Origin: Pseudomonadota bacterium
GTDB taxonomy: Bacteria > Pseudomonadota > Gammaproteobacteria > Burkholderiales > Rhodocyclaceae
Direction: 5' to 3'
NCBI GenBank assembly: GCA_018241725.1
Contig: JAFEDI010000068.1
Location: 1-64,000 of the forward strand
Length of the DNA: 64,000 nt
Part shown: positions 40,219 through 55,820 of the stretch, one piece after another
How positions within the stretch are numbered: the first letter of the stretch is position 1
Layout of the letters: each line of letters begins with the position of its first letter
The notes under the pieces: generated by a model
What the model was told of the DNA's origin: nothing
The model's database searches: none
What the model saw: the letters and a program-made list of their open reading frames with translations, nothing else
Position numbers and translations under genes: made by a program

Positions 40219-40583
40219 GGGGCCGACCTGGCTTCGACGTGGGTTGCAAAGCAGATCAGTGCATACCGAGGACCAGTTACCTCGTAAATCCACTGGAAAA
40301 CTACAAACGCCAACGACGAGCGTTTCGCTCTGGCCGCTTAAGGCCTAAGCCACTGCACTGATTCGTTCCTGGGTCAGGTGGGGTCAAACCCAATTGCAGT
40401 GTCATTTACAGGAACTAGCAACAGATCGGGTTACTTGGTCTCGCGCGAAACTCTAGGTGACTCGCCTGTAGTCGGCCCGCCAATTGGCTAAACTCCGGGT
40501 TAAATTCAAATTAGTTGGCTAAGTATGTAGAACTGACTGTAGAGGGCTTGCGGACGGGGGTTCGATTCCCCCCGGCTCCACCA
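40219..40583 (+). ncRNA. ssrA: Transfer-messenger RNA
   Basis: The 365-nt RNA starts GGGGCCGACCTGGCTTCGAC and ends GGGTTCGATTCCCCCCGGCT plus CCACCA; the ends form a tRNA-like acceptor and T-arm. The tag frame runs from a GCC at 40309-40311 to TAA at 40339-40341 and encodes ANDERFALAA, ending in the ALAA degron. With SmpB it rescues stalled ribosomes. A good terminator follows. The 3' end is a classic integration site for mobile DNA. Confidence 0.97.
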
Positions 40584-40601
40584 AGAAATTGATTTAAAAT
40601 C

Positions 40602-40645
40602 AATAGCCTACAAGACGCACAGCGCGGATTGTAGGCTATTTTTTT
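40602..40645 (+). terminator. Rho-independent terminator of ssrA
   Basis: A 12-bp stem (AATAGCCTACAA at 40602-40613 with 40629-40640) is followed by a run of seven T. Confidence 0.85.
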
Positions 40646-40897
40646 GGGCTGTTTGGGGCCGGTTGATGTACTTTTTGGTTAATCTTTTAGACGAAACCCG
40701 CCGCGCCCGAGCCATCGAACTCCTCGACCGCAACACCCGGTCGATCAAACAGCGCCCGGCTTTGGTCGGGTTCAGCAATGAGAAGCGCCTTGCCAGGGCC
40801 TTCAAGGGGGCACGGGGACTTCACTGCAAGCGTTTCGGGAGCGAGGGGAACGAGGTCCACGTGCTGTAGAACCGGGTAAGCGCCCGGCTTGACGACC

Positions 40898-40933
40898 TCT
40901 CCTTTGCGTTGAACTGGTTCAACGCAAAGGAGA
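40898..40933. repeat. Perfect 17-bp inverted repeat with 2-nt centre
   Basis: TCTCCTTTGCGTTGAAC (40898-40914) is followed by TG and its exact complement (40917-40933). As DNA it is a near-perfect 36-nt palindrome; as RNA it would be a long hairpin. No T-run follows, so it is not a normal terminator. It lies at the left edge of the 21-nt repeats. Confidence 0.8.
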
Positions 40934-41262
40934 ACTTCTGCTGCTCTGAGGTGCGCGGGTTCAAGTTTCAGCTGAACGGGTTCAGCGTGGACTTGAACTG
41001 CTTCAGCTCTGGATTGAACCCGTTCAAATCGCCGCTTCGATCGTTCAAGTCCGAGCAGCGTGATTTCAAGTGGATCTTGAAAAAGTTCAAGTCCGGGGAG
41101 CGGGCGTTTGAATCGGAGCCGAGCAAGTTCAAGTCTGGGCTGCAAATGTTCAAGTCGAAGGAGCGTGGGGCTCGAAGGGCATTCACCGATCCGGCCCAAG
41201 ACGGGGCGGCCTCACGGCAGCGATTGCTGCACGGAGCCCGGGTCCGCCCCCCACCCAACTAA
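40909..41262 (+). CDS. Doubtful small ORF with seven-residue FKS repeats
   Basis: The frame gives 117 residues, of which 17-86 form ten units of seven, such as PFKSPLR, SFKSEQR, DFKWILK, KFKSGER and KFKSGLQ. The only start is a TTG inside the palindrome with no ribosome-binding site, and the minus strand is open too with a seven-residue period (LELARLR-like). The repeats are amphipathic and could form a coiled coil if translated. It may equally be a non-coding repeat array. I recognise no family. The whole stretch 40646-41316 holds no better gene. Confidence 0.25.
   Translation: MNWFNAKENFCCSEVRGFKFQLNGFSVDLNCFSSGLNPFKSPLRSFKSEQRDFKWILKKFKSGERAFESEPSKFKSGLQMFKSKERGARRAFTDPAQDGAASRQRLLHGARVRPPPN
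40957..41166. repeat. Ten degenerate 21-nt tandem repeats downstream of ssrA
   Basis: Ten consecutive 21-nt units can be laid out without gaps, each with a core near TTCAAGTC (for example 41037-41044 frame positions and onwards). Units differ from one another at many places, but the TTCAAG core and the 21-nt phase are kept. Weaker 21-nt phasing may continue on the left of the palindrome on the other strand. Confidence 0.7.
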
Positions 41263-41316
41263 CGCCAAGCGATTGATTTCACATGGCGTTTTTCATTGTG
41301 CTCGCATAGGAGTGCC

Positions 41317-43125
41317 GTGCTGGTTCGCAAGCACAGTAGAATGATTGCCCCGCTCCGACAGCAAGAACGCACGATGCTCCTCGCCGATGTACTGACCCTC
41401 GACAATTTGCGGCTGTACGCTGGCGACAAGACCTTCATCCGTGGGCGGGACTACTTCAACAGCGGCGCCGTTCAAGCTCTGGAGTCCAACGAGAGCAGTG
41501 CCTCGGCCGAAGTCCTCGGGACCCAGCGCTACGAAATCGTGCTCTCGGCCGGGGCGGACGGGGAGCTGGAGTTCGAGTGCGACTGCCCGGTCGGCGAGGA
41601 CGGCATCTTTTGCAAGCATGCAGTCGCGGTCGGCCTGGCCTGGATCGCCGGTGAAGACCTCGCGGAGCCGGAGACATGCTCCCCCAAACCGAAATCCACC
41701 CGCCAATCGAAAGCCGTGCGGCTCCGCGCTTACGTGGACGGACTGTCTCCCGGCGAACTGCGGCGCTGGCTCCTGCAGGCAGCGGAACAGGACCATGACC
41801 TGCGGGACCGCCTGCTTTTTGCCGCCGCGGCCCAGGCTGCCCACGATCTGCCCGGCTTGCGCTCCGCCATCCACCAAGCCACCCGGATCAGCGGCTTCCT
41901 CGACCATGACGACACGGAAGCCCATGCCAACCGCCTTCAGGATCTGGCCGGCCTGCTGGAAACCCGGATCGCCGATGGCGACGCGAAGTTGGTGGAGCTC
42001 GTCGAGGAGGCCATCGGCCTGATCCAGAACGGGCTGGAAAACATCGACGATGGCGAGGGATGGGTCTATGGAAGCCTTGAACGCTTCCAGCAGCTCCATC
42101 TGCTGGCCTGCGAGCACCTCCGGCCCGATGCCACGGCGCTGGCCGAGCGTCTCGTGCGTTACCAGATGGACAGCCATTGGGACACCTTCTCCACCATTCT
42201 GCCGGACTACGGGAATGCCTTGGGTGAGGTGGGCGTGGAGCGCTACCGCACGCAGATCCTGATGCGGTGGGCGCAACTGCCGGCGCTCACGCCGCAGGAC
42301 AATCGCACGGCCCGTTTCGACCCGAAGCGCAGCCGCCTCGAAAAAGCCATGGAAACATTGGCGCGCGCATCCGGCAACATCGACGAGATGATCCAGGTAC
42401 TGCGCCACAACCTCTCCAGCAGCCAGCACTTCCAGTATCTGGCAAGCTATCTGGCGGAACATGGCCGCTTCGATGAAGCGCTGGCCTGCGCAGAAGAAGG
42501 ACTGGCGGCGTTCCCAGCCCAACAGGCGTGGGAACTGGTCGACTTCTGCATTCACGAATATCGGCGACGCGGCGCATTCGACCAGGTCGAGGAGTTCGCC
42601 TGGAAGCGTTTCCTGTCAGGCGCCGACCAGGCGTCCTACGCCGTCCTGCTGAAGGAGGCCGGCAGCATCGGACGTCGCGCCCCCCTGCGTGCGCGAGCGC
42701 TACAACACCTGTGGGATCAGGTCGCCAAGGAAGAAGCGAAACCCCGGAAGCAAAGCCCGGCCTGGCTGCGCTCCGCCCGCAGCGAGCTGGTGGCGATCCA
42801 TATAATGGAACGGGATGCGGAAGCGGCATGGAGCACCTTTCAGGGTGGTCACGTCGCCATCACGCTGTGGGGCAAGGTCGCCGCGCTGCGGGCCGGCAGC
42901 CATCCCGAGGATGCCATCGCCCTCTACTTTCGCCTGTTGCCGCATGCGGTCGAGGAAGGCAGCCGCGGCGCGAAGTATGACGACGCCTTCGCGGTGGTGG
43001 CCGCCATCCGCAAGCTGCGCCTCTCCGGCGGGCAGCATGCGGTGTTCGACGCGGAACTCGGACGGGTTCGTCTGCAATACAAGGCCAAACGGAATTTCAT
43101 GAAACGGCTTGCCGAGTTTCAATAA
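41317..43125 (+). CDS. SWIM zinc-finger family protein upstream of Wadjet
   Basis: This protein of about 602 residues has a SWIM zinc finger, CxC-x8-CxH, at Cys88, Cys90, Cys99 and His101 (CDCPVGEDGIFCKH). The conserved helical start LDNLRLYAGDKTFIRGRDYF precedes it, and a long helical, TPR-like region follows to the end. GTG 41317 is chosen because AGGAG lies 4 nt before it; ATG 41341 and ATG 41374 are alternatives without a clear ribosome-binding site. SWIM domains bind DNA or proteins. It ends 29 bp before jetA on the same strand, so co-transcription with the Wadjet genes is likely. Whether it takes part in defence is unknown. Confidence 0.85.
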   Translation: MLVRKHSRMIAPLRQQERTMLLADVLTLDNLRLYAGDKTFIRGRDYFNSGAVQALESNESSASAEVLGTQRYEIVLSAGADGELEFECDCPVGEDGIFCKHAVAVGLAWIAGEDLAEPETCSPKPKSTRQSKAVRLRAYVDGLSPGELRRWLLQAAEQDHDLRDRLLFAAAAQAAHDLPGLRSAIHQATRISGFLDHDDTEAHANRLQDLAGLLETRIADGDAKLVELVEEAIGLIQNGLENIDDGEGWVYGSLERFQQLHLLACEHLRPDATALAERLVRYQMDSHWDTFSTILPDYGNALGEVGVERYRTQILMRWAQLPALTPQDNRTARFDPKRSRLEKAMETLARASGNIDEMIQVLRHNLSSSQHFQYLASYLAEHGRFDEALACAEEGLAAFPAQQAWELVDFCIHEYRRRGAFDQVEEFAWKRFLSGADQASYAVLLKEAGSIGRRAPLRARALQHLWDQVAKEEAKPRKQSPAWLRSARSELVAIHIMERDAEAAWSTFQGGHVAITLWGKVAALRAGSHPEDAIALYFRLLPHAVEEGSRGAKYDDAFAVVAAIRKLRLSGGQHAVFDAELGRVRLQYKAKRNFMKRLAEFQ

Positions 43126-43154: not shown

Positions 43155-44627
43155 ATGGACCACGCCACCCTCAGCACCCTTCGAGACCGCCATCCCGCAT
43201 GGCGTCTGCTGGCCTCGCCCCATGCAGCGCTGGTGGCGAGCTTCCTGCACCGGGTGTTCGTCACGCCCAACATGCGCGTGATGAGCGAGGCGGATCTCGC
43301 CGAGGCACTGGAGGACGAACTCTTCGCGCTGCGCGAGCAACTCGGTCCGGACGCCTACCCCAGGAATGCACGGGACTACCTGAACGACTGGATCTCCCCC
43401 GACAAGGGTTGGCTGCGCAAGTTCTACAAGCCCGGTACGGACGAAGCCCAGTTCGATCTGACCCCCGCCACCGAGAAGGCCATCGCATGGCTCGTGTCAC
43501 TGACTGAAAGGCCCTTCGTCGGCACCGAGTCGCGGCTCCTGACACTGTTCGCACTCCTGGAACAGATCAGCGCCGGCACCGAAGCCGACCCTGCGAGGCG
43601 AGTCGAAGACCTGCGCAGGAAACGTGACGACATCGACGCCGAAATCGCCCGCATCCTGGCCGGTGACGTGCCGTTTCTGGACGACACCGCCGTCAAGGAC
43701 CGCTTCCAGCAGTTCCAGCAACTGGCTCGCGAGCTGCTGGCCGACTTCCGCGAAGTGGAGCACAACTTCCGCCGACTCGACCGCAAGGTGCGCGAGAAGA
43801 TCGCCCTGTGGGACGGCGCCAAGGGCGCGCTGCTCGATGAGATCATGGGCGAGCGCGATGCCATCGGCGACTCGGACCAGGGTCGCAGCTTCCGCGCCTT
43901 CTGGGATTTCCTCATGTCCAGCCGCCGCCAGGAGGAACTCTCCGCACGGCTGGACCAGGTCCTGGCCTTGCCGGCGGTGGCAGCGCTCCAGCCAGATGCG
44001 CGTACACGTCGCGTCCATTACGACTGGCTGGAAGCCGGCGAACACACCCAGCGCACCGTCGCCCAACTATCGCAGCAACTGCGCCGCTTCCTGGACGACC
44101 GGGCCTTCCTGGAAAACCGCCGCATCCTCGACCTCCTGCACGGCATCGAGAGCAAGGCCCTGGCTCTCCGTGACGCCCCGCCCGCCGCAAGCCCGATGAC
44201 CATGGATGCCATGAGCGCGGACATCGAACTGCCGCTGGAGCGGCCGCTGTTCGCCCCCAAGGCCAAGCCACGCCTCGCCGGGCTCACGCTCGACACAGGA
44301 GAGGACGACATCGACACCGCGCGCCTGTTCGAGCAGATCATCGTGGACAAGGCACGTCTGCGCACGTCTATCCAGCGCGCACTGCGCCACGCACCGCAGA
44401 TCACCCTGCATGACCTGCTGGAGGCCGAACCCTTGCAGCACGGCCTGGCCGAATTGGTCGCCTATCTGGAACTGGCCCACGCCGAGGCCGGCAGCGATGC
44501 TCTCGGCAGCCTGCATGCTGTGGTGGACGAAACCGTGGAAGAACCGATCCGCTGGCAGGCCAGCGATGCACAAGGCGAGCCGGTCACGCGTGAAGCACGC
44601 CTGCCCCGAGTGATCTTCACGCGCTGA
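43155..44627 (+). CDS. jetA: Wadjet protein JetA (DUF3375, kleisin-like)
   Basis: This 490-residue protein matches the DUF3375 family by size, composition and position as the first of four coupled genes. It is the MukF/kleisin-like subunit that links the SMC heads in the JetABC complex. The N-terminal stretch LRDRHPAWRLLASPHAALVA and the long helical middle with FLSSRRQEELSARLDQVL-like segments fit. No ribosome-binding site is clear before the ATG. It is 22 bp from jetB. Confidence 0.9.
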   Translation: MDHATLSTLRDRHPAWRLLASPHAALVASFLHRVFVTPNMRVMSEADLAEALEDELFALREQLGPDAYPRNARDYLNDWISPDKGWLRKFYKPGTDEAQFDLTPATEKAIAWLVSLTERPFVGTESRLLTLFALLEQISAGTEADPARRVEDLRRKRDDIDAEIARILAGDVPFLDDTAVKDRFQQFQQLARELLADFREVEHNFRRLDRKVREKIALWDGAKGALLDEIMGERDAIGDSDQGRSFRAFWDFLMSSRRQEELSARLDQVLALPAVAALQPDARTRRVHYDWLEAGEHTQRTVAQLSQQLRRFLDDRAFLENRRILDLLHGIESKALALRDAPPAASPMTMDAMSADIELPLERPLFAPKAKPRLAGLTLDTGEDDIDTARLFEQIIVDKARLRTSIQRALRHAPQITLHDLLEAEPLQHGLAELVAYLELAHAEAGSDALGSLHAVVDETVEEPIRWQASDAQGEPVTREARLPRVIFTR

Positions 44628-44649
44628 ACGCCGCTGCGACAGGAAGACA

Positions 44650-45342
44650 ATGAACGACACCGTGCCAGATACCTCCCTGGATGAAAACCCGCCCGGCACC
44701 CAGCTGGCGGTACCCGAACTGTCTCTGCTGATGGTTCAACTTCTCAAGGGCGTGCTCTACCGTGACGACGACGAGCATCTGTGGGCAAGCCTCCTGCGCC
44801 TGCAGGCCCGGGTGAGGGAACACGCGGCCATCCTGCTGCTCGACCTGCTGATGGACGAGGCGGAAGGCTACGCCTTCCTCAAAAGTCGCCCGGATCCGGA
44901 CGAATCCGAGGCAGCCCCCCGCCCGCCACGACTCGTCGCCCGCCGGCCCCTGTCTTACCCGGTCAGCCTGATGCTCGCACTGCTGCGCAAGCGCATGGCG
45001 GAGTTCGATGCCGGTGGCGGCGACACCCGCCTGATCCTCGCCCGCGACGAGATCGTCGAACTGATACGGGTCTTCCTGCCCGACGGTACGAACGAAACCC
45101 GGCTCATCGATCAGGTCGACGCCACGATTTCAAAAGTCGTCGAGCTGGGTTTCCTGCGCCGCCTCAAACCCGCGGCGGGCAGCAGCCCCCAGGCCGGACC
45201 GGAGCGTGGGCACTACGAGCTGCGGCGCATCCTCAAAGCCTTCGTCGATGCCCAGTGGCTGGCGGAATTCGACTCGCGGCTGGAGGGCTACCGCCAGGCA
45301 CTGTCCGCTGGAGACGCGGCCCCGGAGGCCAACGATGCTTGA
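44650..45342 (+). CDS. jetB: Wadjet protein JetB (DUF4194, MukE/KITE-like)
   Basis: This 230-residue protein has the DUF4194 features: LLKGVLYRDDDEHLWASLLR near residue 38, EAEGYAFLKSRPDPDES and ARRPLSYPVSLMLALLRKRM. It is the winged-helix KITE subunit that binds the kleisin. GGAAG precedes the ATG. It overlaps jetC by 8 bp. Confidence 0.92.
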   Translation: MNDTVPDTSLDENPPGTQLAVPELSLLMVQLLKGVLYRDDDEHLWASLLRLQARVREHAAILLLDLLMDEAEGYAFLKSRPDPDESEAAPRPPRLVARRPLSYPVSLMLALLRKRMAEFDAGGGDTRLILARDEIVELIRVFLPDGTNETRLIDQVDATISKVVELGFLRRLKPAAGSSPQAGPERGHYELRRILKAFVDAQWLAEFDSRLEGYRQALSAGDAAPEANDA

Positions 45343-48300
45343 AGCGCCGACCCTCGGGCTGGATTTTGTGGCCGACGACAGCCGCGTCGGCTTCCGCCTG
45401 CAAAAACTGGAGGTGCTCAACTGGGGCACCTTCGACAAACGGATCTGGCGCTACGAGCTCGATGGCCGCAACGGCCTGCTCACCGGCGACATCGGGTCCG
45501 GCAAGTCCACAATGGTGGACGCCATCACGACCCTGCTGGTGCCGGCCCAGCGCATCGCTTACAACAAGGCGGCCGGCGCGGATGCGCGTGAGCGGACCCT
45601 GCGCTCATACGTGCTCGGCCACTACAAGAGCGAACGCAACGAGGTCACCGGCAGCGCACGTGCGGTGGCGCTGCGTGATGCATCGAGCTACTCGGTGATC
45701 CTCGGCGTGTTCCGCAACGAGGGCTACGACCAGGCGGTCACCCTGGCCCAGGTGTTCTGGCTGAAGGATCCACAAGGCCAGCCGGCACGGCTGTTCGTCG
45801 CGGCGGAACGGGCCATGACGATTGCCGGGGACTTTGCCGGTTTCGGCAGCGACATTGCATCCCTGCGCAAGAAGCTTCGCAACACGGGCAGCGAGCTGTT
45901 CGACAGCTTTCCGCCCTACTCTGCCTGGTTCCGCCGACGCTTCGGCATCGAGCACGAACAAGCGCTGGAGCTGTTCCACCAGACGGTGTCGATGAAATCG
46001 GTAGGCAACCTCACCGACTTCGTGCGCAGCCACATGCTGGAACCTTTCGATGTAGCCAGCCGCATCGATGCGCTGATCCGTCATTTCGACGACCTGGACC
46101 GCGCCCACCAGGCCGTGCTCAAGGCCAAGCGGCAGGTCGATCTGCTCACGCCGCTGGTCGCCGACGGCCAACGCCACGCCACCCTGGCGGCGGAAATTCA
46201 GGGCTTTCGCGACGGGCGCGATGCCCTGCGCCCCTACTTCGCCGGGCTCAAGGGCCAACTGCTGGACCGCCGTCTCGCGCTGCTGGCGGAGGATGCCGCC
46301 CGGCTCGACGCCCAGATCGAGCGCCTGGGCGCCCAACGCGACGACGAGCGCACCGCGGTGAGCAATCTGGAACATGCCATGCGCGACAACGGCGGCGACC
46401 GCCTGGAGCAACTTGCCGCCGAGATCCGGCGCAAGGGAACAGACCGGACGGAACGCCAGCAGAAGGCCGAACGCCACGCCGCCTTGCTGGCCCTCGTCGA
46501 AGAGCTGCCGCCCGCCGACGAAGGCACCTTCCTCGCTCAACGCCACGCCATTGGCGCCCGTGCAGAATCGCTGCGCGAGCGTATCGCGGACCTCACCAAC
46601 CGCGAGCGCGAGGAAGACTTCGCTTTCCGCAAAGGCCGGGAAGAACACGCAGCCCTGAGCGACGAGATCGACAGTCTCAAGCTCCGCAAAAGCAATATCG
46701 AGGCTGCCCAGATCCGCATCCGCGAGTCGCTCTGCGCGGCCCTCTCCATCCCCGAGGACGACCTGCCCTTCGCCGGCGAACTCATCCAGGTACGCGAAGA
46801 CGAACGCGACTGGCAAGGCGCGGCCGAACGCCTGCTGCGTGGCTTCGGCCTTGCGCTGCTGGTGCCCGAGGCGCACTACAGGGACGTCGCCGAATGGGTG
46901 GACCGCCAGCATCTCGGTGCACGCCTGGTCTACTTCCACGTCCGGCCGAAGAAAAGCGTGCAAGCTGCCAACCTGCATCCTCAGTCGCTCGTGCGCAAGC
47001 TCGCCATCAAGCCAGACTCGCCGCATTACGAATGGCTGGAGCAGGAACTGCGCAACCGCTTCGACGTGGCCTGCTGCGACAGTGCCGAGCAATTTCGCCG
47101 CGAGGCCCGGGCCATAACGCGCAGCGGCCAGATCAAGGACCCGAGCGGGCGTCATGAGAAGGACGACCGCAACCGCATCGACGACCGCAGCCGCTACGTA
47201 CTCGGCTGGAGCAATGCCGACAAGCTGCGCGCCCTGCGGGACCAGCGTGACCGCCTGGAGGCCATGCTGGTCACGGTCGGCCAGCACATCGCCGAAATCC
47301 AGCAGTCGCGCAAGCAGCTGGAAGGCCGGCTGGAAGCGCTGGCAAGACTGGAGGAGTTCACACGCTACGCGGACATCGACTGGCAGAGCCTGGCGTGCGA
47401 GATCGCCGCGCTCCGGGAAGAGCTCAAACGCCTGGAGTCCGCCTCCAATACCCTGCAGGAACTGGGGCGGCAGTTGCAGGCCGCCCGCGGCCGGCTGGCC
47501 GAGACGGAAAGCAGACTGACTGACGTGCTGGGCAAGCGCGGCGAAACCAGGAGCAAGCGCGAAGCCGCCCAGGAACTGCGGGACCAGACCCGGGCCGTGT
47601 GTGAGGCAACGCCGCTCGTCGATGCCCAGCTCGCGCGCCTGGAAGACTGGCGCAACGAGGCACTGGGCGAGCACCAGCTCTCGGTCGAATCCTGCGACAA
47701 CCGCGAGCAGGAGCTGCGCAAGTGGCTGCAGGACCGCATCGATGCGGAGGACAAGCGCCTCTCCCGCCTGACCGAACGCATCATCAATGCAATGCGCGGC
47801 TTCAAGGAAGAATTCAAGGCCGAAACCGTCGACATGGACGCAAGCCTGGCGGCGACAGCCGAATACGCCCGCTTGCTCGACGGCCTGCAGCGTGACGACC
47901 TGCCCCGCTTCGAGGCCCGCTTCAAGGAGCTGCTCAACGAGAACACCATCCGCGAGATTGCCAACTTCAACGGTCAGCTCGCCCGGGAGCGGGAGACAAT
48001 CGCCGAGCGCGTCGGCCGCATCAACCAGTCCCTGCAGGGCATAGATTACAACCCCGGACGCTTCATCAGGCTGGTGGCCCAGCCCAGCCCGGATGCAGAG
48101 ATCCGCGATCTTCAGCAAGACCTTCGCGCCTGCACCGAAGACTCATTGACGGGTTCAGCGGATGAACAGTACTCGGAAACGAAGTTCCTGCAGGTCAAGG
48201 CCATCATCGACCGCTTCCGGGGTCGCGAAGGCCTGTCGGAGGCGGACCGGCGCTGGACCGCGAAAGTCACCGACGTACGCAACTGGTTCCTGTTCTCGGC

Positions 48301-48712
48301 CAGCGAGCGCTGGCGAACCGATGACGCCGAGCACGAGCACTACTCCGACTCCGGCGGCAAGTCGGGTGGCCAGAAGGAAAAGCTGGCCTACACGGTGCTC
48401 GCCGCCAGCCTGGCCTACCAGTTCGGCCTGGAATGGGGCGCGGTGCGCTCCCGCTCGTTCCGCTTCGTGGTCATCGACGAAGCCTTCGGGCGCGGATCGG
48501 ACGAATCGGCGCAGTACGGGCTGCGGCTGTTCCAGCAACTCAACCTGCAGTTGCTGATCGTCACGCCTCTGCAGAAGATCCACATCATCGAGCCCTTTGT
48601 GGCCAGCGTCGGCTTCGTGCACAACGAGGGCGGGCGGGATTCGCGGCTGCGCTGCCTGAGCATCGAGGAATACCGGGCGCAGAAAGCCGGTACGGTTCAG
48701 GTCTCACGATGA
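45335..48712 (+). CDS. jetC: Wadjet protein JetC (SMC/MukB-like ATPase)
   Basis: This 1125-residue SMC-like ATPase has Walker A GDIGSGKS at 51-58, long coiled coils with a hinge in between (about 300-950), the ABC signature around SGGKSGGQKEKL (about 1006-1017) and Walker B VVIDEAF near 1045-1051. JetC dimers with JetA and JetB extrude DNA loops. The start is the ATG at 45335, with GGAGG 6 nt upstream, inside the end of jetB; the frame is open for 43 codons more but these lie in jetB. It overlaps jetD by 4 bp (ATGA). Confidence 0.95.
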   Translation: MLEAPTLGLDFVADDSRVGFRLQKLEVLNWGTFDKRIWRYELDGRNGLLTGDIGSGKSTMVDAITTLLVPAQRIAYNKAAGADARERTLRSYVLGHYKSERNEVTGSARAVALRDASSYSVILGVFRNEGYDQAVTLAQVFWLKDPQGQPARLFVAAERAMTIAGDFAGFGSDIASLRKKLRNTGSELFDSFPPYSAWFRRRFGIEHEQALELFHQTVSMKSVGNLTDFVRSHMLEPFDVASRIDALIRHFDDLDRAHQAVLKAKRQVDLLTPLVADGQRHATLAAEIQGFRDGRDALRPYFAGLKGQLLDRRLALLAEDAARLDAQIERLGAQRDDERTAVSNLEHAMRDNGGDRLEQLAAEIRRKGTDRTERQQKAERHAALLALVEELPPADEGTFLAQRHAIGARAESLRERIADLTNREREEDFAFRKGREEHAALSDEIDSLKLRKSNIEAAQIRIRESLCAALSIPEDDLPFAGELIQVREDERDWQGAAERLLRGFGLALLVPEAHYRDVAEWVDRQHLGARLVYFHVRPKKSVQAANLHPQSLVRKLAIKPDSPHYEWLEQELRNRFDVACCDSAEQFRREARAITRSGQIKDPSGRHEKDDRNRIDDRSRYVLGWSNADKLRALRDQRDRLEAMLVTVGQHIAEIQQSRKQLEGRLEALARLEEFTRYADIDWQSLACEIAALREELKRLESASNTLQELGRQLQAARGRLAETESRLTDVLGKRGETRSKREAAQELRDQTRAVCEATPLVDAQLARLEDWRNEALGEHQLSVESCDNREQELRKWLQDRIDAEDKRLSRLTERIINAMRGFKEEFKAETVDMDASLAATAEYARLLDGLQRDDLPRFEARFKELLNENTIREIANFNGQLARERETIAERVGRINQSLQGIDYNPGRFIRLVAQPSPDAEIRDLQQDLRACTEDSLTGSADEQYSETKFLQVKAIIDRFRGREGLSEADRRWTAKVTDVRNWFLFSASERWRTDDAEHEHYSDSGGKSGGQKEKLAYTVLAASLAYQFGLEWGAVRSRSFRFVVIDEAFGRGSDESAQYGLRLFQQLNLQLLIVTPLQKIHIIEPFVASVGFVHNEGGRDSRLRCLSIEEYRAQKAGTVQVSR

Positions 48713-49893
48713 ACTGGACCACCTCGGCGGACCTGCGCGCCCAGGTCCAGCGTCTGTGGGATCGTGGCGAACTGTTGCGCGCATCGGTGTCCGATGCCAG
48801 CGAATGGCCGCGGCGCCTGAGCCTGAAGGCCCCCACGGCATCCGACCTGACGGAGCGTTTCGAAGCCGTGCGCAATTGGGTTCACGCCGTGGCCGACACC
48901 CCCCACGTACGGGTCGACTGGCGCGAATGGACGCATCGCGTGCAAGGCAGACAGCGACTACCGACCACCGTATGGGTCGATTCATTACAGGATGCGCTGG
49001 CCTTCATCGGACAGGGGCAAGCGGTACAGCGCTACCTGGCGCTCTGGCAGCAGACCGCCACTGCACAGCCGACCCTGCTCCCATGGCTGACCAGGCGCCC
49101 GCTGCAGGTACTGGAGCTGACTGACGCCTGGGAGCGCCTGCTCACTGTCGTCGCGTGGCTGCAAGCCCACCCTCGCCCAGGTGTGTACCTGCGCCAGGTG
49201 GATGCTCCCGGGGTGGACAGCAAGTTCATCGAAGCCCATCGGGGTGTATTGGCCGAATGGCTGGATCTGGCCCTGCCGCCGGAGGCTATCGATGCCACGG
49301 CAAGCGGTTCAGCACAATTCACCCGCCGTTACGGCTTTCTGGACAAACCCTTGCGCCTGCGCTTCCGGCTGCTCGACCCTGCCCTGCCGAGCCTGCCCGG
49401 CTGCCATGGTTTGCCCGACATCACACTGGATGCAGCAAGCTTCGCCCCCCTCGCCCTCCCCGTCAGGCGGGTCTTCATCACCGAGAACGAAACCAACTTT
49501 CTGGCCTTCCCGCCCGTGACGAAAGCGATCATCGTCTTCGGCGCCGGCTACGGCTGGGAAGCCCTGGCCCCCGCCACGTGGCTGCAGGACTGCAAGGTGC
49601 ACTACTGGGGCGACCTCGACACCCACGGCTTCGCCATCCTCGACCAGTTGCGCGAACACCTTCCCCACGCGGCTTCGTTCCTGATGGACCGGGAGACTCT
49701 GCTGGCCCACCGCCCGCACTGGGGCAAGGAACCCACCCCCACGCAGCGCGAGCTCCCACGTCTCACGGCGGAGGAGGCCACACTCTACGACGCGCTCCGC
49801 TTCGATCATCTCCAACCCGGACTGCGCCTGGAACAGGAGCACGTCAGCTACCGGTGGCTCAGCGACAGGCTCGCGCACATTACCTCGACATAG
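48709..49893 (+). CDS. jetD: Wadjet protein JetD (Toprim nuclease)
   Basis: This 394-residue protein has the DUF3322 N-terminal and DUF2220 C-terminal (Toprim) regions of JetD. The Toprim motifs are intact: Glu259 in VFITENETNFLAF and the DxD pair Asp302/Asp304 in HYWGDLDTHGFAILDQLR. JetD cuts small circular DNA once JetABC has extruded it fully. With all catalytic motifs of JetC and JetD present, this is a complete and probably working Wadjet type I system. Confidence 0.94.
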   Translation: MNWTTSADLRAQVQRLWDRGELLRASVSDASEWPRRLSLKAPTASDLTERFEAVRNWVHAVADTPHVRVDWREWTHRVQGRQRLPTTVWVDSLQDALAFIGQGQAVQRYLALWQQTATAQPTLLPWLTRRPLQVLELTDAWERLLTVVAWLQAHPRPGVYLRQVDAPGVDSKFIEAHRGVLAEWLDLALPPEAIDATASGSAQFTRRYGFLDKPLRLRFRLLDPALPSLPGCHGLPDITLDAASFAPLALPVRRVFITENETNFLAFPPVTKAIIVFGAGYGWEALAPATWLQDCKVHYWGDLDTHGFAILDQLREHLPHAASFLMDRETLLAHRPHWGKEPTPTQRELPRLTAEEATLYDALRFDHLQPGLRLEQEHVSYRWLSDRLAHITST

Positions 49894-49913: not shown

Positions 49914-50633
49914 TCATTCCGGCCTGGTGATGACCGAGCATAGCGCCGCCTCGGTCCGGTTCGATACCTTCAGTTTGTCGAGCAGTTGCTGGACATGGTT
50001 CTTCACGGTCTGCGGGCTCAGGCCCAGTTCTGCCGCAATTTCCCGGTTGGACAGGCCGCCGCGGATGCCGGCCAGCACCTGGCGCTGGCGTGGGGACAAG
50101 TCGGCCTCGATGCTCCTCGTCGGGCTGGCGGGCGGCAGGCTGGCAAAGGCGTTGGCGAGATAGGGCTGCAACAGGCAGGCGAAGTAGCGCTCCCGTTCAC
50201 CAGGGCTGCCCTGCACGCCAAGGAACACGAAGACGTTCAGACCACTCTCCGAAGCCCGCTCACTGCCATGGAGCAGTCCGGCCCCATCGGCATGTGGGCC
50301 GAGCATTTTCAACATGAGCGGGCAATCGGCGGCAAGATCGATGCGGCACGGCTGCCTGTCATGGGCATGCCAACGCTTCGAAAGAACCTGGCACAGGGCC
50401 TCGCCAGCCTCACTCAGTCCCTCCTCCGCCCGATGCGGCAACGGCAAACGGGAAAACACTCCGGCGCGGGCGCCCCCGGGCCAGCGGCTCAGGCAGATCA
50501 GGGTTTCGTGGGGCAGGAAGCTCTGCAGCCCGCCCTGCGCCCATAGGTAGAACTGGTGGCTGCGCCGGATGCGGATGGCCTCGTCCAGCACCAGCGGCAG
50601 GCGTTCCCGATCAAGATCGGTGAGGAGCATCAT
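49914..50633 (-). CDS. epsA: LuxR-family regulator, EpsA-like (PEP-CTERM/exopolysaccharide associated)
   Basis: This 239-residue protein has a LuxR-type helix-turn-helix at its C-terminus (about 175-236, LSPRQRQVLAGIRGGLSNRE and GLSPQTVKNHVQQLLDKL) and an N-terminal region without a receiver or autoinducer motif I can name. The N-terminal stretch RSHQFYLWAQGGLQSFLPHE resembles EpsA regulators of PEP-CTERM/exosortase exopolysaccharide loci. It starts 10 bp after the last secretion gene, so it is probably in the same transcript. The symbol is a likeness call. Confidence 0.8.
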   Translation of the reverse strand: MMLLTDLDRERLPLVLDEAIRIRRSHQFYLWAQGGLQSFLPHETLICLSRWPGGARAGVFSRLPLPHRAEEGLSEAGEALCQVLSKRWHAHDRQPCRIDLAADCPLMLKMLGPHADGAGLLHGSERASESGLNVFVFLGVQGSPGERERYFACLLQPYLANAFASLPPASPTRSIEADLSPRQRQVLAGIRGGLSNREIAAELGLSPQTVKNHVQQLLDKLKVSNRTEAALCSVITRPE

Positions 50634-50643
50634 CGCGGCGCCC

Positions 50644-51150
50644 TCATCGACCCGCAGCCTGCTGTGCTTGACGTCGGCTCATCGTGTCGGCGGGGCGGAA
50701 CAGCCAGTCCCGGTAGCGTGCGCCACCGGCACCCGAGGCTCCGACGCTGACCCACTCCGGCAAGCCATCGCGGCGCAGCGCCTCGCGCTCGGAGCGGCTG
50801 CGCAGCCCGACGATGCGGCCTTCCTGACGCTCCACAATCCAGTCCGCCGCGCCGGTCATCGGGTCGCGGTACAGCCGGCGCAGGTGGCGCCGCACGAAGG
50901 GCACGCGCGGGTCGAGGAGCAGCGCGTCCAGCGTTGCCGGAGCGGCCGCCGGGTCGTCGGGCTGGGCAGCCTGGTAGCTGGCCAATGCGCGGGCGAATTC
51001 GCTGCCGATGAACAGCAGCTCGGCCTCTCGTTCCCGCTGAGCGCTGATCGACCACAGGCTGCCAAAGCGGGCCAGGCCGAAGCCCAGGGCCGCCACCGCG
51101 AACAGCATCAGGAGGTAGGTGACGCCACGCTGGCGTGCGCGCGCCGTCAT
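50644..51150 (-). CDS. Type II secretion/pilin-like protein with one membrane helix
   Basis: This 168-residue protein starts MTARARQRGVTYLLMLFAVA, with a basic N-terminus and one helix (about 10-29) but no FTLIE-type motif. It has the RGVTYL signature of small T2SS accessory proteins. The rest is soluble and Arg-rich. Its ATG overlaps the stop codon of the next gene upstream (ATGA). It is the last structural gene before epsA. Function unknown; a minor pseudopilin or assembly protein is likely. Confidence 0.8.
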   Translation of the reverse strand: MTARARQRGVTYLLMLFAVAALGFGLARFGSLWSISAQREREAELLFIGSEFARALASYQAAQPDDPAAAPATLDALLLDPRVPFVRRHLRRLYRDPMTGAADWIVERQEGRIVGLRSRSEREALRRDGLPEWVSVGASGAGGARYRDWLFRPADTMSRRQAQQAAGR

Positions 51151-51533
51151 AGCTCGCCGAACGAACGCCCGTCGCGGGCCGTGCCGGGGGCGCTGCTGTG
51201 CAGGTCCCACACACCGGAACCGCCGGGCGGGGCGACCAGCTGCCAGCCGTCCCGGCGCTCGGTGAGCGGGTCCACCGGCGCGGCGCGCAGATAGCGGCGG
51301 TCCACCAGCTCGTCCAGGTCCTGCGGGTAACGCCCGGTGTCGCCGTGGAACTTGTCGATGGCGTCGCGGGTAACCGCCAGCGTCTCGGCCAGGGCCGCCT
51401 CCCGCGCCCGCTCCAGATGGACGAAATAGCGCGGCGCGGCGATGGAGATGAGCAGCGCAACGATGGCCATCACCACCAGCAGCTCGATCAGCGTGAAGCC
51501 GCCGCGGCGCCGCTTCGACGTCAGCATCACCAT
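51147..51533 (-). CDS. Pseudopilin, GspG-like
   Basis: This 128-residue protein has a class III prepilin signal: RRRGG before the cleavage site, then FTLIELLVVMAIVALLISIA. Soluble tail with TGRYPQDLDELVDRRYLR is of the GspG fold. Start may be ATG 51533 or ATG 51527; both overlap the gene upstream. It is one of three small pseudopilin-like proteins in a row. Confidence 0.85.
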   Translation of the reverse strand: MVMLTSKRRRGGFTLIELLVVMAIVALLISIAAPRYFVHLERAREAALAETLAVTRDAIDKFHGDTGRYPQDLDELVDRRYLRAAPVDPLTERRDGWQLVAPPGGSGVWDLHSSAPGTARDGRSFGEL

Positions 51534-51994
51534 TCCCGGTAGGGCACGCCGTTGAGCCCGCTGCCCGGTGCTCGGGAATAGACGTCGAACACGTCGCGCC
51601 CTTCCCGCGGGGCGTCCGGCGGGCTGGCGTAGCTGCGCAGGCCCCAGCCGGCGGCGGCGTCCTGGCCGCTGGTGTCGAAGGGGTCGCGCGGAATCCGCCG
51701 CAGGATGTAGATGCGCGCCTGGCCGGGGGCACGGGCGTCAGGCATGCCGCGCACCAGGTCCTCCAGCGTCCCGGGGTAGCCGCTGCCATCGGCGGCGCGG
51801 GCAATGCGGCCCTCGTCGCTGTAGCGCTTGTAGGTGTCGATGCCTTCCCGCAGCTGGCGCAGGGCCAGGCGCAGTTCGCTCTCCTTGGCGCGCTGGGCGG
51901 TGAGCTGGGCGACCGGCACCGCGATGGCGGCAAGCACCGCCACCACCGCCACCGTGACGACCATCTCGATCAGCGTGAAGCCGCGGTTAGTCAT
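51527..51994 (-). CDS. Pseudopilin, GspG/H-like
   Basis: This 155-residue protein has the prepilin motif MTNRG-FTLIEMVVTVAVVAVLAAI and a GspG-like tail (LREGIDTYKRYSDEGRI). The start is ATG 51994, 13 nt after the secretin stop codon; an upstream TTG at 52018 is less likely. It probably forms part of the pseudopilus with the other two. Confidence 0.88.
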   Translation of the reverse strand: MTNRGFTLIEMVVTVAVVAVLAAIAVPVAQLTAQRAKESELRLALRQLREGIDTYKRYSDEGRIARAADGSGYPGTLEDLVRGMPDARAPGQARIYILRRIPRDPFDTSGQDAAAGWGLRSYASPPDAPREGRDVFDVYSRAPGSGLNGVPYREW

Positions 51995-52007
51995 GATCCG
52001 GAAGGGC

Positions 52008-54251
52008 TCACGGCGCAATGCGCACCCGCGCCGGCGCGGGGCTGTTCAGCGGCTGGACCGATCCGCCTGTACGTGCATCGGTTGCCAGCAGGCTGAAGAC
52101 GGAGTTGCCGGCAGCCTTGGCGCGGGCCCGGAAGCGCGCATCCACGCTGCCGCCTGACAGATGCAGGGCCAGCGCGTCGCCGCCCTCGCCGGGCTGATCG
52201 AGGGGTTCGACCAGCGTCGTGTCGTAGGCCAGCAGCAACGGGCGCCCTTCGCCCGCCGCGCCGCTGACGCGCACCGCAAAGGTCTCGCCTGGGCGGACCT
52301 GTTCCGGGGCGGCCAGTCGCGGTTCGCCAGCCGACGCTTCAGGCGCCATCGCTGAGATAGGCAGCGCTGCGGGCACCGGCGTTACCCCGGCCCGCCCGGC
52401 TCCGGCAGCAGGCCCCGCAATCGGTGTGAGCAGCAACGGCGCGGCACCGACCGCCGACTCCGTCCCCGCACCAAACGTGGCACTGGCCAGCGCCGGCTGG
52501 TTGAGGTTGCGCAGCACCCGCGGGGTGATCAGCAGCACGATCTCGGTCTTGTTGGCCACGTCGCGCTGACTGCTGAAGAGCCGCCCGAGCCCGGGCAGAT
52601 CGCCGAGCCCCGGCAGGCGGTTGGCGGCGCTGCGCTCCTCGTCGCTGATCAGGCCGGCCAGCACCTGGGTCTCCCCGTCCTTCAGGCGCAGGGACGTGGC
52701 GGCGCTGCGCGTACCAACCTGGTAGGCCAGGGAGTTGGACGGGCCGAGGACTTCCTTCACTACGCTGCTGACCTCCAGGTTCACCTTGATCGCCACCTCC
52801 TCGTCCAGGTGCACCGACGGCTCCACCTCCAGCTTGAGGCCCACGTCCAGATAGTTCACCGAGGCCGACACGCCCACGTTGGCGGTGGAGGTGGTGGTGA
52901 ACACCGGCAGCTTCTCGCCGATGTGGATGCGTGCCTTGTCCCGGTTCTTCACGCGGATGCGCGGGTTGGCGAGGATGTTGGAATCCCCGTCCTGGTCCTT
53001 CAGGTTGAGCAGCAGGCCGGGGTTGGCCACGTAGGGCACCATCGCGCCGGTGTTGCGCAGATTCACGTTGCCGCTGAGCAGCTGGCCGCCCAGGTTCTCG
53101 GTGATGGTGGTGCCGGTGGTGGTGGTCACCGCGCTGGTGGTGGTGGGCTGCAGCAGGCCATAGCCGATCTGGTCCGGAAAGCGCAGGCCCAGTTCGAGCA
53201 ACTTGTTGCGGCTGATCTCCAGCACCTCCACCTCCAGCATCACCTCCGGTTCGGGCAGGTCGAGGCCGGCGATCAGGCGCTCCGCGAGGCGCACTGCGTC
53301 GGGCGTGTCCTTCATCACCAACAGGTTCAAACGCTCCTCCACGAAGACGTCCTTGGTCTTGACCATCTGCTTGACCAGCTCCATGGCCTGCTTGGGCGAC
53401 GCGTTGGCGAGGTAGAAGCTGCGCGTCACCAGCTCCTGGTAGTCCTTCTGCTTGGCCGGCGTGTTGGGGTAGATCAGGATCGAGTTGTCGTTGAGGAGCT
53501 TGCGTTCGAGCTGCTGGGTGGTCGCCAGCAGCTTGAGCACATCGTCGATGCTGCTGCGCCTCACGAAGATCGACACCTTGGTGTCGGGCCGCACATCCTT
53601 GTCGAGCACGAAGTTGAGACCGGACTCCCGCGACAGCACCTCCAGCACGCCGCGCAGCGGGGCGTCGCGGAATTCGAGGGTGATCGGCTTGGCCAGCGGC
53701 CCCTTCAGCGCCACCGGCAGCGGGTCGCGGGCGACGCTGCGTTCGTCGAGCCGGCGCATCACGCTGCGCGCCAGCGCATGGCCGGGTTCGGCAGCCAGCA
53801 CGCTGCGGGCGGCCTGCTCCGCGCCGACGAAGTCCTGGGCGTCGAGGCGCTTGCCGGCCTCGGCCGCCGTTCGGTTGCGCTGGCGCTGGGCGGCGATCGT
53901 CTCCAGCCCGGCGACCACCCGCGGGTGATTGGGGTCGTACTGGCGCGCCAGCACCAGCGCCGCCTCGGCGTCCTCGAAACGGCCGCCGGCCCGCGCCTCC
54001 TCGGCCACGGCCAGCTGGCGCAGGGTCAGGCGGTCGCGCTGGCGCAGGTAGTAGCTGCGCAGCGCCAGGTTGGCGGGGTCGGCGGCGATCTTCTGCTGCA
54101 GATCGCGCAAGGCCGCCTCCGGCGCACCGCTGGCGAAGGCCTGGCGGCTCGCCTCCAGGGCGGGGTTGGCGGCGCAGGCGGTCAACAAGACAAGTACAAG
54201 GGCCAGTGCGGCCCCGGCGCACAGGGTGTGGAACGGACGTGGTGGCTTCAT
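52008..54251 (-). CDS. gspD: Secretin (GspD/PilQ-like) with C-terminal cohesin-like domain
   Basis: This 747-residue protein has a lipoprotein-type signal (VLVLLTACAANP, lipidated Cys about residue 26), a TPR-like region (about 40-160), N-domains (about 180-330), and the secretin domain (about 370-590) with SASVNYLDVGLKLEVEPSVH, LKDGETQVLAGLISDEERS and LLITPRVLR. A further domain (about 645-745, QVRPGETFAVRVSGAAGEGR onwards) resembles cohesin. It forms the outer-membrane pore. Its start overlaps the PilP-like gene by 4 bp. Confidence 0.93.
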   Translation of the reverse strand: MKPPRPFHTLCAGAALALVLVLLTACAANPALEASRQAFASGAPEAALRDLQQKIAADPANLALRSYYLRQRDRLTLRQLAVAEEARAGGRFEDAEAALVLARQYDPNHPRVVAGLETIAAQRQRNRTAAEAGKRLDAQDFVGAEQAARSVLAAEPGHALARSVMRRLDERSVARDPLPVALKGPLAKPITLEFRDAPLRGVLEVLSRESGLNFVLDKDVRPDTKVSIFVRRSSIDDVLKLLATTQQLERKLLNDNSILIYPNTPAKQKDYQELVTRSFYLANASPKQAMELVKQMVKTKDVFVEERLNLLVMKDTPDAVRLAERLIAGLDLPEPEVMLEVEVLEISRNKLLELGLRFPDQIGYGLLQPTTTSAVTTTTGTTITENLGGQLLSGNVNLRNTGAMVPYVANPGLLLNLKDQDGDSNILANPRIRVKNRDKARIHIGEKLPVFTTTSTANVGVSASVNYLDVGLKLEVEPSVHLDEEVAIKVNLEVSSVVKEVLGPSNSLAYQVGTRSAATSLRLKDGETQVLAGLISDEERSAANRLPGLGDLPGLGRLFSSQRDVANKTEIVLLITPRVLRNLNQPALASATFGAGTESAVGAAPLLLTPIAGPAAGAGRAGVTPVPAALPISAMAPEASAGEPRLAAPEQVRPGETFAVRVSGAAGEGRPLLLAYDTTLVEPLDQPGEGGDALALHLSGGSVDARFRARAKAAGNSVFSLLATDARTGGSVQPLNSPAPARVRIAP

Positions 54252-54727
54252 GGAGTGCCGGTGCTCAGGCTCTGGGTTTCGTTGAGGGGCAGGTACAGGA
54301 AGTCGATGCGCTGGCGGCTCACCGCCGTCACCCGGTAGCGGCCGTCGAGCACGTCGCCGGGGCGCACCGCTCGGACCTCGTCCCGCTCGAGCAGGAAGGC
54401 CGCAGGCACGCCGCCGTCCTCCAGCGCGCCGCCGTAGCGGTACGGCAAGGGCGGTGCGACGGGCTTGGTGTCGACCGGCGGCGGAGGCGGCGGTGGCTGG
54501 AAGCTGCGCGCCGGAAAGAGTTCGCCTGGCACGCCATCGGCCGGCGGACGCGCGCCGAGGCGCAACTCGCCGAGCGGCATGGGCGGGACCGCAACCGAAC
54601 GGGGAGCCCGGCCAGCCTTGCGCACCGGCCGCGTGCTACCGTCGCCCTCATCGTCCAGCCCGGCAGCCCACCAGGCGGCGGCGAGGACGGCGCCCAGCGC
54701 GAGGATGAGCCCATGGGCGCGCTTCAT
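54248..54727 (-). CDS. PilP/GspC-like periplasmic linker protein
   Basis: This 159-residue protein has an N-terminal membrane helix (about 5-23), a Pro-rich linker (about 60-90, with a PPPPPPP run) and a small C-terminal domain with VRPGDVLDGRYRVTAVSRQR, which is like the PilP/GspC homology region that touches the secretin. It overlaps gspD and the PilO-like gene by 4 bp each. The call is from size, topology and place. Confidence 0.75.
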   Translation of the reverse strand: MKRAHGLILALGAVLAAAWWAAGLDDEGDGSTRPVRKAGRAPRSVAVPPMPLGELRLGARPPADGVPGELFPARSFQPPPPPPPVDTKPVAPPLPYRYGGALEDGGVPAAFLLERDEVRAVRPGDVLDGRYRVTAVSRQRIDFLYLPLNETQSLSTGTP

Positions 54728-55278
54728 GAGCGCCCCCGCAGGAAGATCACCAGCCGGACGCGCGCTTCCAGTTCCTCTGCACCGATGTCGGCCCGTTTCA
54801 GCAGCAGCCCGTCGACGGCCACCTCCGGCAGTTCGGCCAGCAGATCGCCGAGCCACAGGCGCAGCGCGGCGTAGCGGCCATGCAGCGGCAACTCCAGCGC
54901 CACCTGCTCCAGCGGCGTACCGGCAAGCGGCGTGGAGCGGTAGTCGGCCTTGTCGGCGGCGAGGCCGCGGGCCAGCGCGTAACCGTGGATGCGCACCAGC
55001 AGATCGGGCAGGCCGTCGCCGGCCGGGAAGGCGCCGTAGTAGGCGTCGAGACGCTCCCTCTCGGCGGGCGGCGACGGCAGCGCATGACGCTGCTGGCGGA
55101 GCAGGCTGCGGGTCTGGCGGTCCAGCGTGTCGGCCTCGTCGGCGAGGGGCCGGTTGCCGCTGACATCGAAAGCCAGCGCGAAGACGGTCAGCGCCACGCC
55201 GAGCACGCCGGCCCAGCCGGCGCCACGCAGGATCCGCTGCGCTTCCGCCCGTAGGGTTGCAAGGCGCGGCGCCATCAC
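54724..55278 (-). CDS. PilO/GspM-like inner-membrane protein
   Basis: This 184-residue protein has one N-terminal membrane helix (about 20-40), a coiled stretch (about 45-80) and a ferredoxin-like C-terminal domain, the architecture of PilO or GspM. PilO-like features such as LDAYYGAFPAGDGLPDLLVR are seen. ATG 55278 or 55275. It overlaps both neighbours. Confidence 0.8.
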   Translation of the reverse strand: MMAPRLATLRAEAQRILRGAGWAGVLGVALTVFALAFDVSGNRPLADEADTLDRQTRSLLRQQRHALPSPPAERERLDAYYGAFPAGDGLPDLLVRIHGYALARGLAADKADYRSTPLAGTPLEQVALELPLHGRYAALRLWLGDLLAELPEVAVDGLLLKRADIGAEELEARVRLVIFLRGRS

Positions 55279-55820
55279 GGCTGCGCCTCCCAGCGGGCCT
55301 GTAGCTCGAAGCCGACCACCTGGACGGGCCCGTTCTGGCGGAAGGCGTAGCCGGCCAGCCTCACGTCGCGCAGCGCCGGGATGGCTTCGAGGCGCTTCAC
55401 GAAGGCGAAGACCTCGGGCAGGTTGCGGGCCTCGCCGCTGAGCTTGAGGCGTCCCTTGGCACCGTCCTGGTCCAGCTCCAGCAAGGCCAGGCTCGGATCG
55501 TCGGCGGCGGCTTCGAGGGCCGCCAGCAGCGCATTCCAGTCGCGCCCGAGGCCGGCTACCACGCCGAGGGCCGTGCGGCGCTCCGGGTCCGTGAGTGGCG
55601 CCACCGGCGGACGAACCGGGCGGGCGACGGCGCTCTGCCGACGCGCCCGCTCGTAAGCATGGCGCGCTTCGGCGAGGCGGGTTTCGGCCACATCGAACTC
55701 GTGGAGCACGCCGAGCGCGGCAAGCGCCCCGCAGGCCAGCATCAGCCAGCCGAGCGCGCCGGGCGGACGGCGGCGGCCGCTGAAGTCCAGGTCAACGGCG
55801 GACGGCACGGCGCGGCTCAC
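55275..55820 (-). CDS. PilN/GspL-C-like inner-membrane protein
   Basis: This 181-residue protein starts at a GTG that overlaps the stop codon of the PilM-like gene (GTGA). It has a short cytoplasmic N-terminus, one membrane helix (about 22-40, LGWLMLACGALAALGVL), a coiled region, and a C-terminal domain with LKLSGEARNLPEVFAFVKRL as in PilN. It should pair with the PilO-like protein. Confidence 0.82.
   Translation of the reverse strand: MSRAVPSAVDLDFSGRRRPPGALGWLMLACGALAALGVLHEFDVAETRLAEARHAYERARRQSAVARPVRPPVAPLTDPERRTALGVVAGLGRDWNALLAALEAAADDPSLALLELDQDGAKGRLKLSGEARNLPEVFAFVKRLEAIPALRDVRLAGYAFRQNGPVQVVGFELQARWEAQP

Follow-up and report, generated by a model that had tools for sequence, protein, structure and literature searches.

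A Wadjet type I operon, very probably complete, behind ssrA in a Rhodocyclaceae genome, and the gain, loss and stacking of defence genes around it

Introduction

What do the four tightly packed genes at positions 43155 to 49893 of our window encode, are they intact, and how did they come to lie behind ssrA, the gene for transfer-messenger RNA (tmRNA)? The window is the whole stretch of DNA analysed here, 64,000 nucleotides at the start of contig JAFEDI010000068.1 (148,560 bases) from a Rhodocyclaceae bacterium (assembly GCA_018241725.1). A sequence-only reading, made without database searches, had taken the cluster for a complete and probably active copy of the known Wadjet type I anti-plasmid system, located about 2.5 kb after ssrA at a common place for islands; it had proposed profile searches as a check and named a frameshift in the assembly as something that would overturn it. 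We find that the system is ordinary and of known type, and that defence genes have been gained, lost and stacked around it.

Gene content and motifs of the jet operon

The operon consists of the following genes:

43155..44627, plus strand: jetA, 490 amino acids, kleisin-like subunit, DUF3375
44650..45342, plus strand: jetB, 230 amino acids, KITE-like subunit, DUF4194/MksE
45335..48712 from its ATG, plus strand: jetC, 1125 amino acids, SMC-like ATPase
48709..49893 from its ATG, plus strand: jetD, 394 amino acids, Toprim nuclease

They follow each other in the order A-B-C-D with a 22-bp gap between jetA and jetB and overlaps of 8 bp (jetB/jetC) and 4 bp (jetC/jetD), and the translations of their open reading frames (ORFs) contain no internal stops. 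The best PADLOC matches are JetA1 (9.7e-219), JetB1 (3.2e-92), JetC1 (E=0) and JetD1 (2.3e-155), with the type I models outscoring the type II and type III models listed for all four genes. Pfam searches returned DUF3375 for JetA (5.1e-156), DUF4194 (2.1e-42) plus MksE (1.8e-11) for JetB, AAA_29 and SbcC_Walker_B for JetC, and DUF3322 and JetD_C for JetD. These E-values are far from chance, and the type I domain set (DUF3375, DUF4194, an SbcC/MukB-like ATPase, DUF3322 with JetD_C) is complete. PADLOC demands jetA to jetD together for a call of Wadjet type I, as described in excerpts of PMC9252829, and all four are present at 43155-49893.

The catalytic motifs that the sequence-only reading had described as intact could all be located by position. 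JetC carries a Walker A motif (GDIGSGKS, residues 51-58), an ABC signature (SGGQKEK, residues 1010-1016) and a Walker B motif (FVVIDE, residues 1044-1049). In JetD, the Toprim glutamate lies in ITENE (residues 257-261) and the DxD motif (D302, D304) in WGDLD (residues 300-304), and E259 is aligned with the residue mutated in PDB entry 8q72, JetD(E248A). Given the profiles, the gene order and these motifs, 43155-49893, located behind ssrA, is very probably a complete operon of Wadjet type I, in agreement with the earlier view of four overlapping or nearly overlapping genes in jetA-jetD order and of a known system.

Selection, distribution and dispensability

The same block is carried by a congener, G535 (contig JAFEDJ010000069.1, metagenome-assembled genome SZAS-77, locus L002), in which all four Jet proteins are equal in length to those of the window and free of internal stops. 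A frameshift in the assembly is unlikely, because this second contig has four open genes of the same length. Protein identities between the two genomes are 94.9% (JetA), 90.4% (JetB), 93.2% (JetC) and 89.6% (JetD), and the ratios of nonsynonymous to synonymous substitution rates (dN/dS, Nei-Gojobori) are 0.088, 0.229, 0.113 and 0.171 for jetA to jetD. Among the flanking genes, the one before jetA (described below) shows 78% identity and a dN/dS of 0.294, and the downstream LuxR gene 82% and 0.183. Since G535 keeps the block and the jet genes have dN/dS values of 0.09-0.23, the system is under selection and probably works; the earlier judgement that it is probably active is indirectly supported by intact frames, catalytic residues and purifying selection.

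Wadjet is patchily distributed among relatives (all counts take in the window's own genome). JetC matches were found in 6 of the 23 genomes of the genus (E<=0.001), in 50/395 of a family sample (E<=1e-50) and in 15/100 of an order sample (E<=0.001, including two weak matches at 7.1e-6 and 5.5e-4), and JetA in 37/369 of a class sample (E<=0.001, fragments and weak matches counted). Two of the six JetC-bearing genus members, G534 and G537, belong to a distant branch (31%). A quick tree of 64 JetC proteins pairs the window with G535, within a starred clade that also contains G213, G396, G502, G748 and others, and places congener G542 in another starred clade; this tree comes with a long-branch warning, and a label test on 7 of its 64 rows was uninformative (208/500 shuffles as low). 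For the comparison of gene neighbourhoods, we used 67 Jet loci, most of them chosen from the JetA and JetC match lists without taking every match, and G502 via its ssrA site. A JetC match is present in 65 of these 67 loci and 53 of them have at least 2 kb upstream of jetA; gene names without a profile match in the relatives' loci were read by eye. A search of the operon DNA against plasmid sequences gave one partial match (78% over 19%).

The window's own genome also has, at a contig edge (L133, G000:C103, 4757-4945), a fragment of JetA residues 18-41 (83%) that is fused to a stretch resembling the JetD C-terminus and adjoined by an AAA ATPase-like gene (both by eye). This stretch may be what is left of a second Wadjet that was deleted.

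Some observations weigh against a complete and working Wadjet. No clear ribosome-binding sequence was seen by eye before jetA. The proteins are homologous to solved JetA, JetB, JetC, JetD and MksG in the PDB, but the solved Wadjet type I complexes are only distant relatives of the window copy (JetC, best match 5.1e-57; JetB, 3.8e-05; JetA chain, 1.7e-27). The IFDR motif of the JetB N-terminus, reported in excerpts of PMC10586767 as a contact to JetD and not as type-defining, is absent from the window JetB as a literal string, looser forms being outside this search. Because of this distant homology and the missing literal IFDR, docking of JetD may differ from the solved complexes. The IFDR test itself says little, because the literal string is found in none of the 58 JetB-region ORFs of other loci (several with uncertain starts). 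Finally, the operon is dispensable, since JetC is limited to 6/23 congeners, one species has lost the operon (see below), and the window's own genome has an apparent deleted second copy.

Near its start (44650-44760), the window JetB has VPELSLLMVQLLKGVLYR, with similar forms in most loci of the same branch, and the JetB proteins of G534 and G537 have TIFRGDTGGLP in its place.

The match of JetB to MksE, together with the relatedness of Wadjet and Muk complexes stated in excerpts of PMC9252829, would also fit a chromosome-organising condensin of the MksBEF/MukBEF kind with a nuclease relic in place of a plasmid defence. We consider this hardly credible: JetD is intact with its glutamate and DxD and evolves under purifying selection (dN/dS 0.171), the type I Jet models are the best match for all four genes, and the patchy occurrence of JetC as well as the loss in one congener are unlike a housekeeping condensin.

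The ssrA site across relatives

The landmarks at this site are:

40219..40583, plus strand: ssrA (tmRNA), tag ANDERFALAA, found with ARAGORN and Rfam; its 3' end is an integration site in congeners
40569..40583, plus strand: last 15 bp of ssrA, a copy of which lies at the far end of the G535 element (att core)

jetA starts 2,572 bp past the end of ssrA at 40583, as the earlier estimate had it. In G535, a 16.8-kb element (L160:1016-17815) is located in ssrA directly before the Wadjet block. Genes for an integrase (Arm-DNA-bind_3, Phage_int_M) and for the regulator AlpA stand at its start; it also encodes DUF927, KilA-N and TIR (PDC-S35) proteins and terminates in the 15-bp copy of the ssrA 3' end. 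Another congener, G527, has ssrA followed by an integrase-like fragment (by eye), JetD residues 248-394, and the same LuxR and secretin genes as the window. In this remnant (L159:4190-5373), JetD is reduced to its C-terminal 147 residues (89.8% identity), and the right flank is collinear with the window contig to the end of the stretch compared (103.5 kb) with a short break near 91 kb. Because the JetD tail and the same right flank remain, Wadjet was once present in G527 and has been lost. In G542, integrase-like debris (by eye) precedes a Wadjet that lies 1.55 kb behind ssrA and has 69% JetC identity. In G502, another member of the family, an integrase and then a transposase-like stretch (by eye) come between ssrA and Wadjet, with jetA 8.3 kb behind ssrA. 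The sequence just past ssrA is near-identical in G527, G535 and G542, and we take it for the left end of a single family of elements.

When stretches of 4 to 19 kb beyond ssrA were compared between congeners (matches over 200 bp, E<=1e-10), 12 of 13 aligned to the window contig only up to ssrA; the 13th, from G542, aligns again at the Jets. Within the genus, the sequence behind ssrA is variable and the site is a hotspot. In the family, Wadjet occupies the site behind ssrA in G000 (the window genome), G535, G542 and G502 and has left its remnant there in G527; G543 is set aside because its contigs end. The description of ssrA as a common place for islands thus holds in the genus, as seen from the integrase element of G535 with its 15-bp ssrA copy and the remnants in G527 and G542, and is also found in print for Pseudomonas aeruginosa and Escherichia coli (excerpts of PMC10250203 and PMC10121019). 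For E. coli, the excerpts of PMC10121019 list the tmRNA locus as hotspot 9 and give hotspot 37 as the one preferred by Wadjet-bearing elements. Of the 53 other Jet loci that extend 2 kb or more upstream of jetA, only G502 and G542 show a tmRNA in the sequence retrieved, so the Wadjets of the family mostly sit elsewhere.

Downstream of jetD, the window continues at 49914-58028 with a LuxR gene and then minus-strand secretin, N-methylation-motif and T2SSE ATPase genes. Among the congeners compared, G000, G535 and G527 are the only ones with this LuxR/secretin/T2SSE block behind ssrA.

The location behind ssrA, the integrase gene between ssrA and Wadjet in G502 and the integrase-like debris there in G542 (by eye) could suggest that the operon was recently acquired as a mobile island through an ssrA-specific integrase element. 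We regard such a recent arrival as unlikely. No second ssrA end was found in the window (up to 3 mismatches in 26) or on the whole contig of 148.6 kb (up to 5 mismatches in 25), and no integrase was seen by eye between ssrA and the LuxR gene (40584-40908 without profile scan). The jet genes have a G+C content of 0.657-0.663 and a third-position G+C content (GC3) of 0.795-0.834, both inside the values seen for the tested flanking genes (0.625-0.697 and 0.748-0.902). The position is moreover common to G535, and G527 has its remnant with the same right flank. A recent att-flanked island was accordingly rejected in view of the single ssrA end on the contig, the block in G535 and the remnant in G527; an old arrival by an ssrA-targeting element may have taken place. 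In the history that we propose, the operon behind ssrA probably predates the split of G000, G535 and G527 and was deleted down to the jetD tail in G527. With the operon intact in G000, intact behind an inserted element in G535 and reduced to a remnant in G527, these genomes form a natural series that suits the study of gain and loss of plasmid defence beside a landing site of mobile elements.

The SWIM/DUF6880 gene before jetA

The operon is preceded by another gene, on which the sequence-only reading had not remarked:

41374..43125, plus strand: SWIM zinc finger and DUF6880/helical-repeat gene, 583 amino acids from a probable ATG at 41374; a neighbour and not part of the system

Its ORF is open from a TTG at 41296 (41296-43125, 609 amino acids), matches Pfam DUF6880 and SWIM, and ends 29 bp before the start of jetA on the same strand. 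The ORF matches PADLOC candidate PDC-S62 at 2.9e-31 in two stretches, the best spanning profile positions 8-222 of 566; six homologues match at 2.6e-45 to 1.2e-71, five of them at full or nearly full length. A CxC...CxH pattern is conserved in three SWIM sequences. No PDB sequence match was obtained up to E=1. The AlphaFold model (three sequences) has a predicted local distance difference test (pLDDT) score of 74.2, with residues 9-126 mostly under 50, and among its best 50 matches resembles generic TPR/HAT superhelices at query TM-scores (template modelling scores) of 0.12-0.35; the model would say no more than that this is a helical repeat. The protein has matches in four plasmid records (best 44.7%) and none in phage records, and our literature search found no paper on PDC-S62 or DUF6880.

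Several observations could point to a five-gene Wadjet variant in which the SWIM protein acts as an added sensor or regulator: the 29-bp spacing on the same strand, the same place in G535, the listing of the family as candidate PDC-S62 by PADLOC, and the homologues beside restriction-modification or CRISPR genes. Among eight homologue loci, with gene names read by eye, type I restriction genes lie near the homologue in L129, type III-like restriction genes in L130, CRISPR type I-C-like genes in L131, and an AAA gene with a small partner in L003; in L128, L150, L151 and L004, no neighbour is clearly a defence gene. A five-gene system is nevertheless very improbable. Outside G535, the gene is missing (tblastn, E<=1e-3) from all 53 other Jet loci that extend 2 kb or more upstream of jetA. 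It adjoins Wadjet only in the window and G535, and homologues occur without Jets alongside. In G116, a homologue and JetA lie on separate contigs, the JetA contig being without a SWIM match. The gene is also less conserved between the window and G535 than the Jets (78% versus 90-95% identity, dN/dS 0.294), and DNA similarity to other jet loci starts at the start of jetA in 9 of 10 loci besides G535, G332 being without such a match. The gene was rejected as a Wadjet component and is taken as a lineage-specific neighbour. Perhaps it is a second, candidate defence gene on the jet transcript in this lineage, co-transcribed with jetA.

Genes nested in jet operons of relatives

More than 1 kb is held by 5 of 169 measurable junctions between neighbouring jet genes, a count that was made on jet operons and not on others:

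G502, L147:15114-16913, jetC-jetD junction: GmrSD_N protein (HEC-05, 5e-30)
G735, L238:10088-14090, jetA-jetB junction: SIR2 protein (Dsr1, 2.9e-54) and BrnT toxin
G798, L243:8989-11294, jetB-jetC junction: Septu, PtuA (1.3e-158) and PtuB (3e-87)
G273, L126:12127-14491, jetB-jetC junction: nucleotidyltransferase, weak substrate-binding-like match, opposite-strand Uma2 (PDC-S03)
G622, L242:4197-5354, jetC-jetD junction: weakly DnaJ-like protein (below the Pfam cut-off), no PADLOC match

The G798 locus has no jetD match and continues with a transposase-like gene (by eye). A literature search with few terms found no report of genes nested in jet operons. Tentatively, and as a possibility with the odds against it, type I jet operons of the family and class may be nests in which stand-alone defence genes (Septu PtuAB, Dsr1-like SIR2 with BrnT, GmrSD-like, a nucleotidyltransferase pair with Uma2) are placed between jet genes or, like PDC-S62, directly before jetA. 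Functions against plasmids and against phages might then be encoded on one transcript, and ssrA-targeting elements would repeatedly erode the adjoining Wadjet. If the nesting is true, searching inside or just before jet operons would be a simple route to untested defence genes.

Repeats in the window

The interval between ssrA and the SWIM gene contains a repeat:

40956..41167, no strand assigned: 21-bp-phased repeat array of GTTCAAGTC / GACTTGAAC units; genus-dispersed repeat, not part of Wadjet

Of the 23 congeners, 10 contain the strict GTTCAAGTC / GACTTGAAC pattern and none contains the control, the pattern read backwards; the arms of these arrays face each other in several places. The array is perhaps a dispersed intergenic repeat or a putative binding array. 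An ORF at 40909-41262 was rejected as a gene, as it follows the 21-bp-phased repeat and has no Pfam match. At the other end of the window, positions 1-850 hold dense tandem repeats (periods of 24, 75, 171, 246 and 417 among others) inside a long minus-strand ORF.

Mechanism and comparison with known systems

As described in excerpts of PMC10586767, JetABC extrudes DNA loops and detects small circular DNA, and it activates JetD, which makes the cut; the window sequence contradicts nothing in this mechanism. By analogy, JetA (kleisin), JetB (KITE) and JetC (SMC ATPase) would form a DNA-loop-extruding dimer of dimers. On small circular DNA, extrusion would run to completion and activate the Toprim nuclease JetD so that the plasmid is cut; linear DNA and the chromosome would escape cutting.

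The gene before jetA resembles PADLOC candidate PDC-S62 in its SWIM plus DUF6880 composition and its partial model match (2.9e-31), and differs in that it adjoins Wadjet here whereas homologues elsewhere adjoin other systems or none. The location has a counterpart in cDHS2, the ssrA-flanked core defence hotspot of P. aeruginosa, where excerpts of PMC10250203 report Wadjet adjoining ssrA as in our window; here, however, the lineage and the right flank are different. The operon itself shares with Wadjet type I (JetABCD/EptABCD/MksBEFG) the four genes, their order and domains, and the ATPase and Toprim motifs. It is a further intact Wadjet, and the part of type I to which it belongs is only distantly related to the solved complexes.

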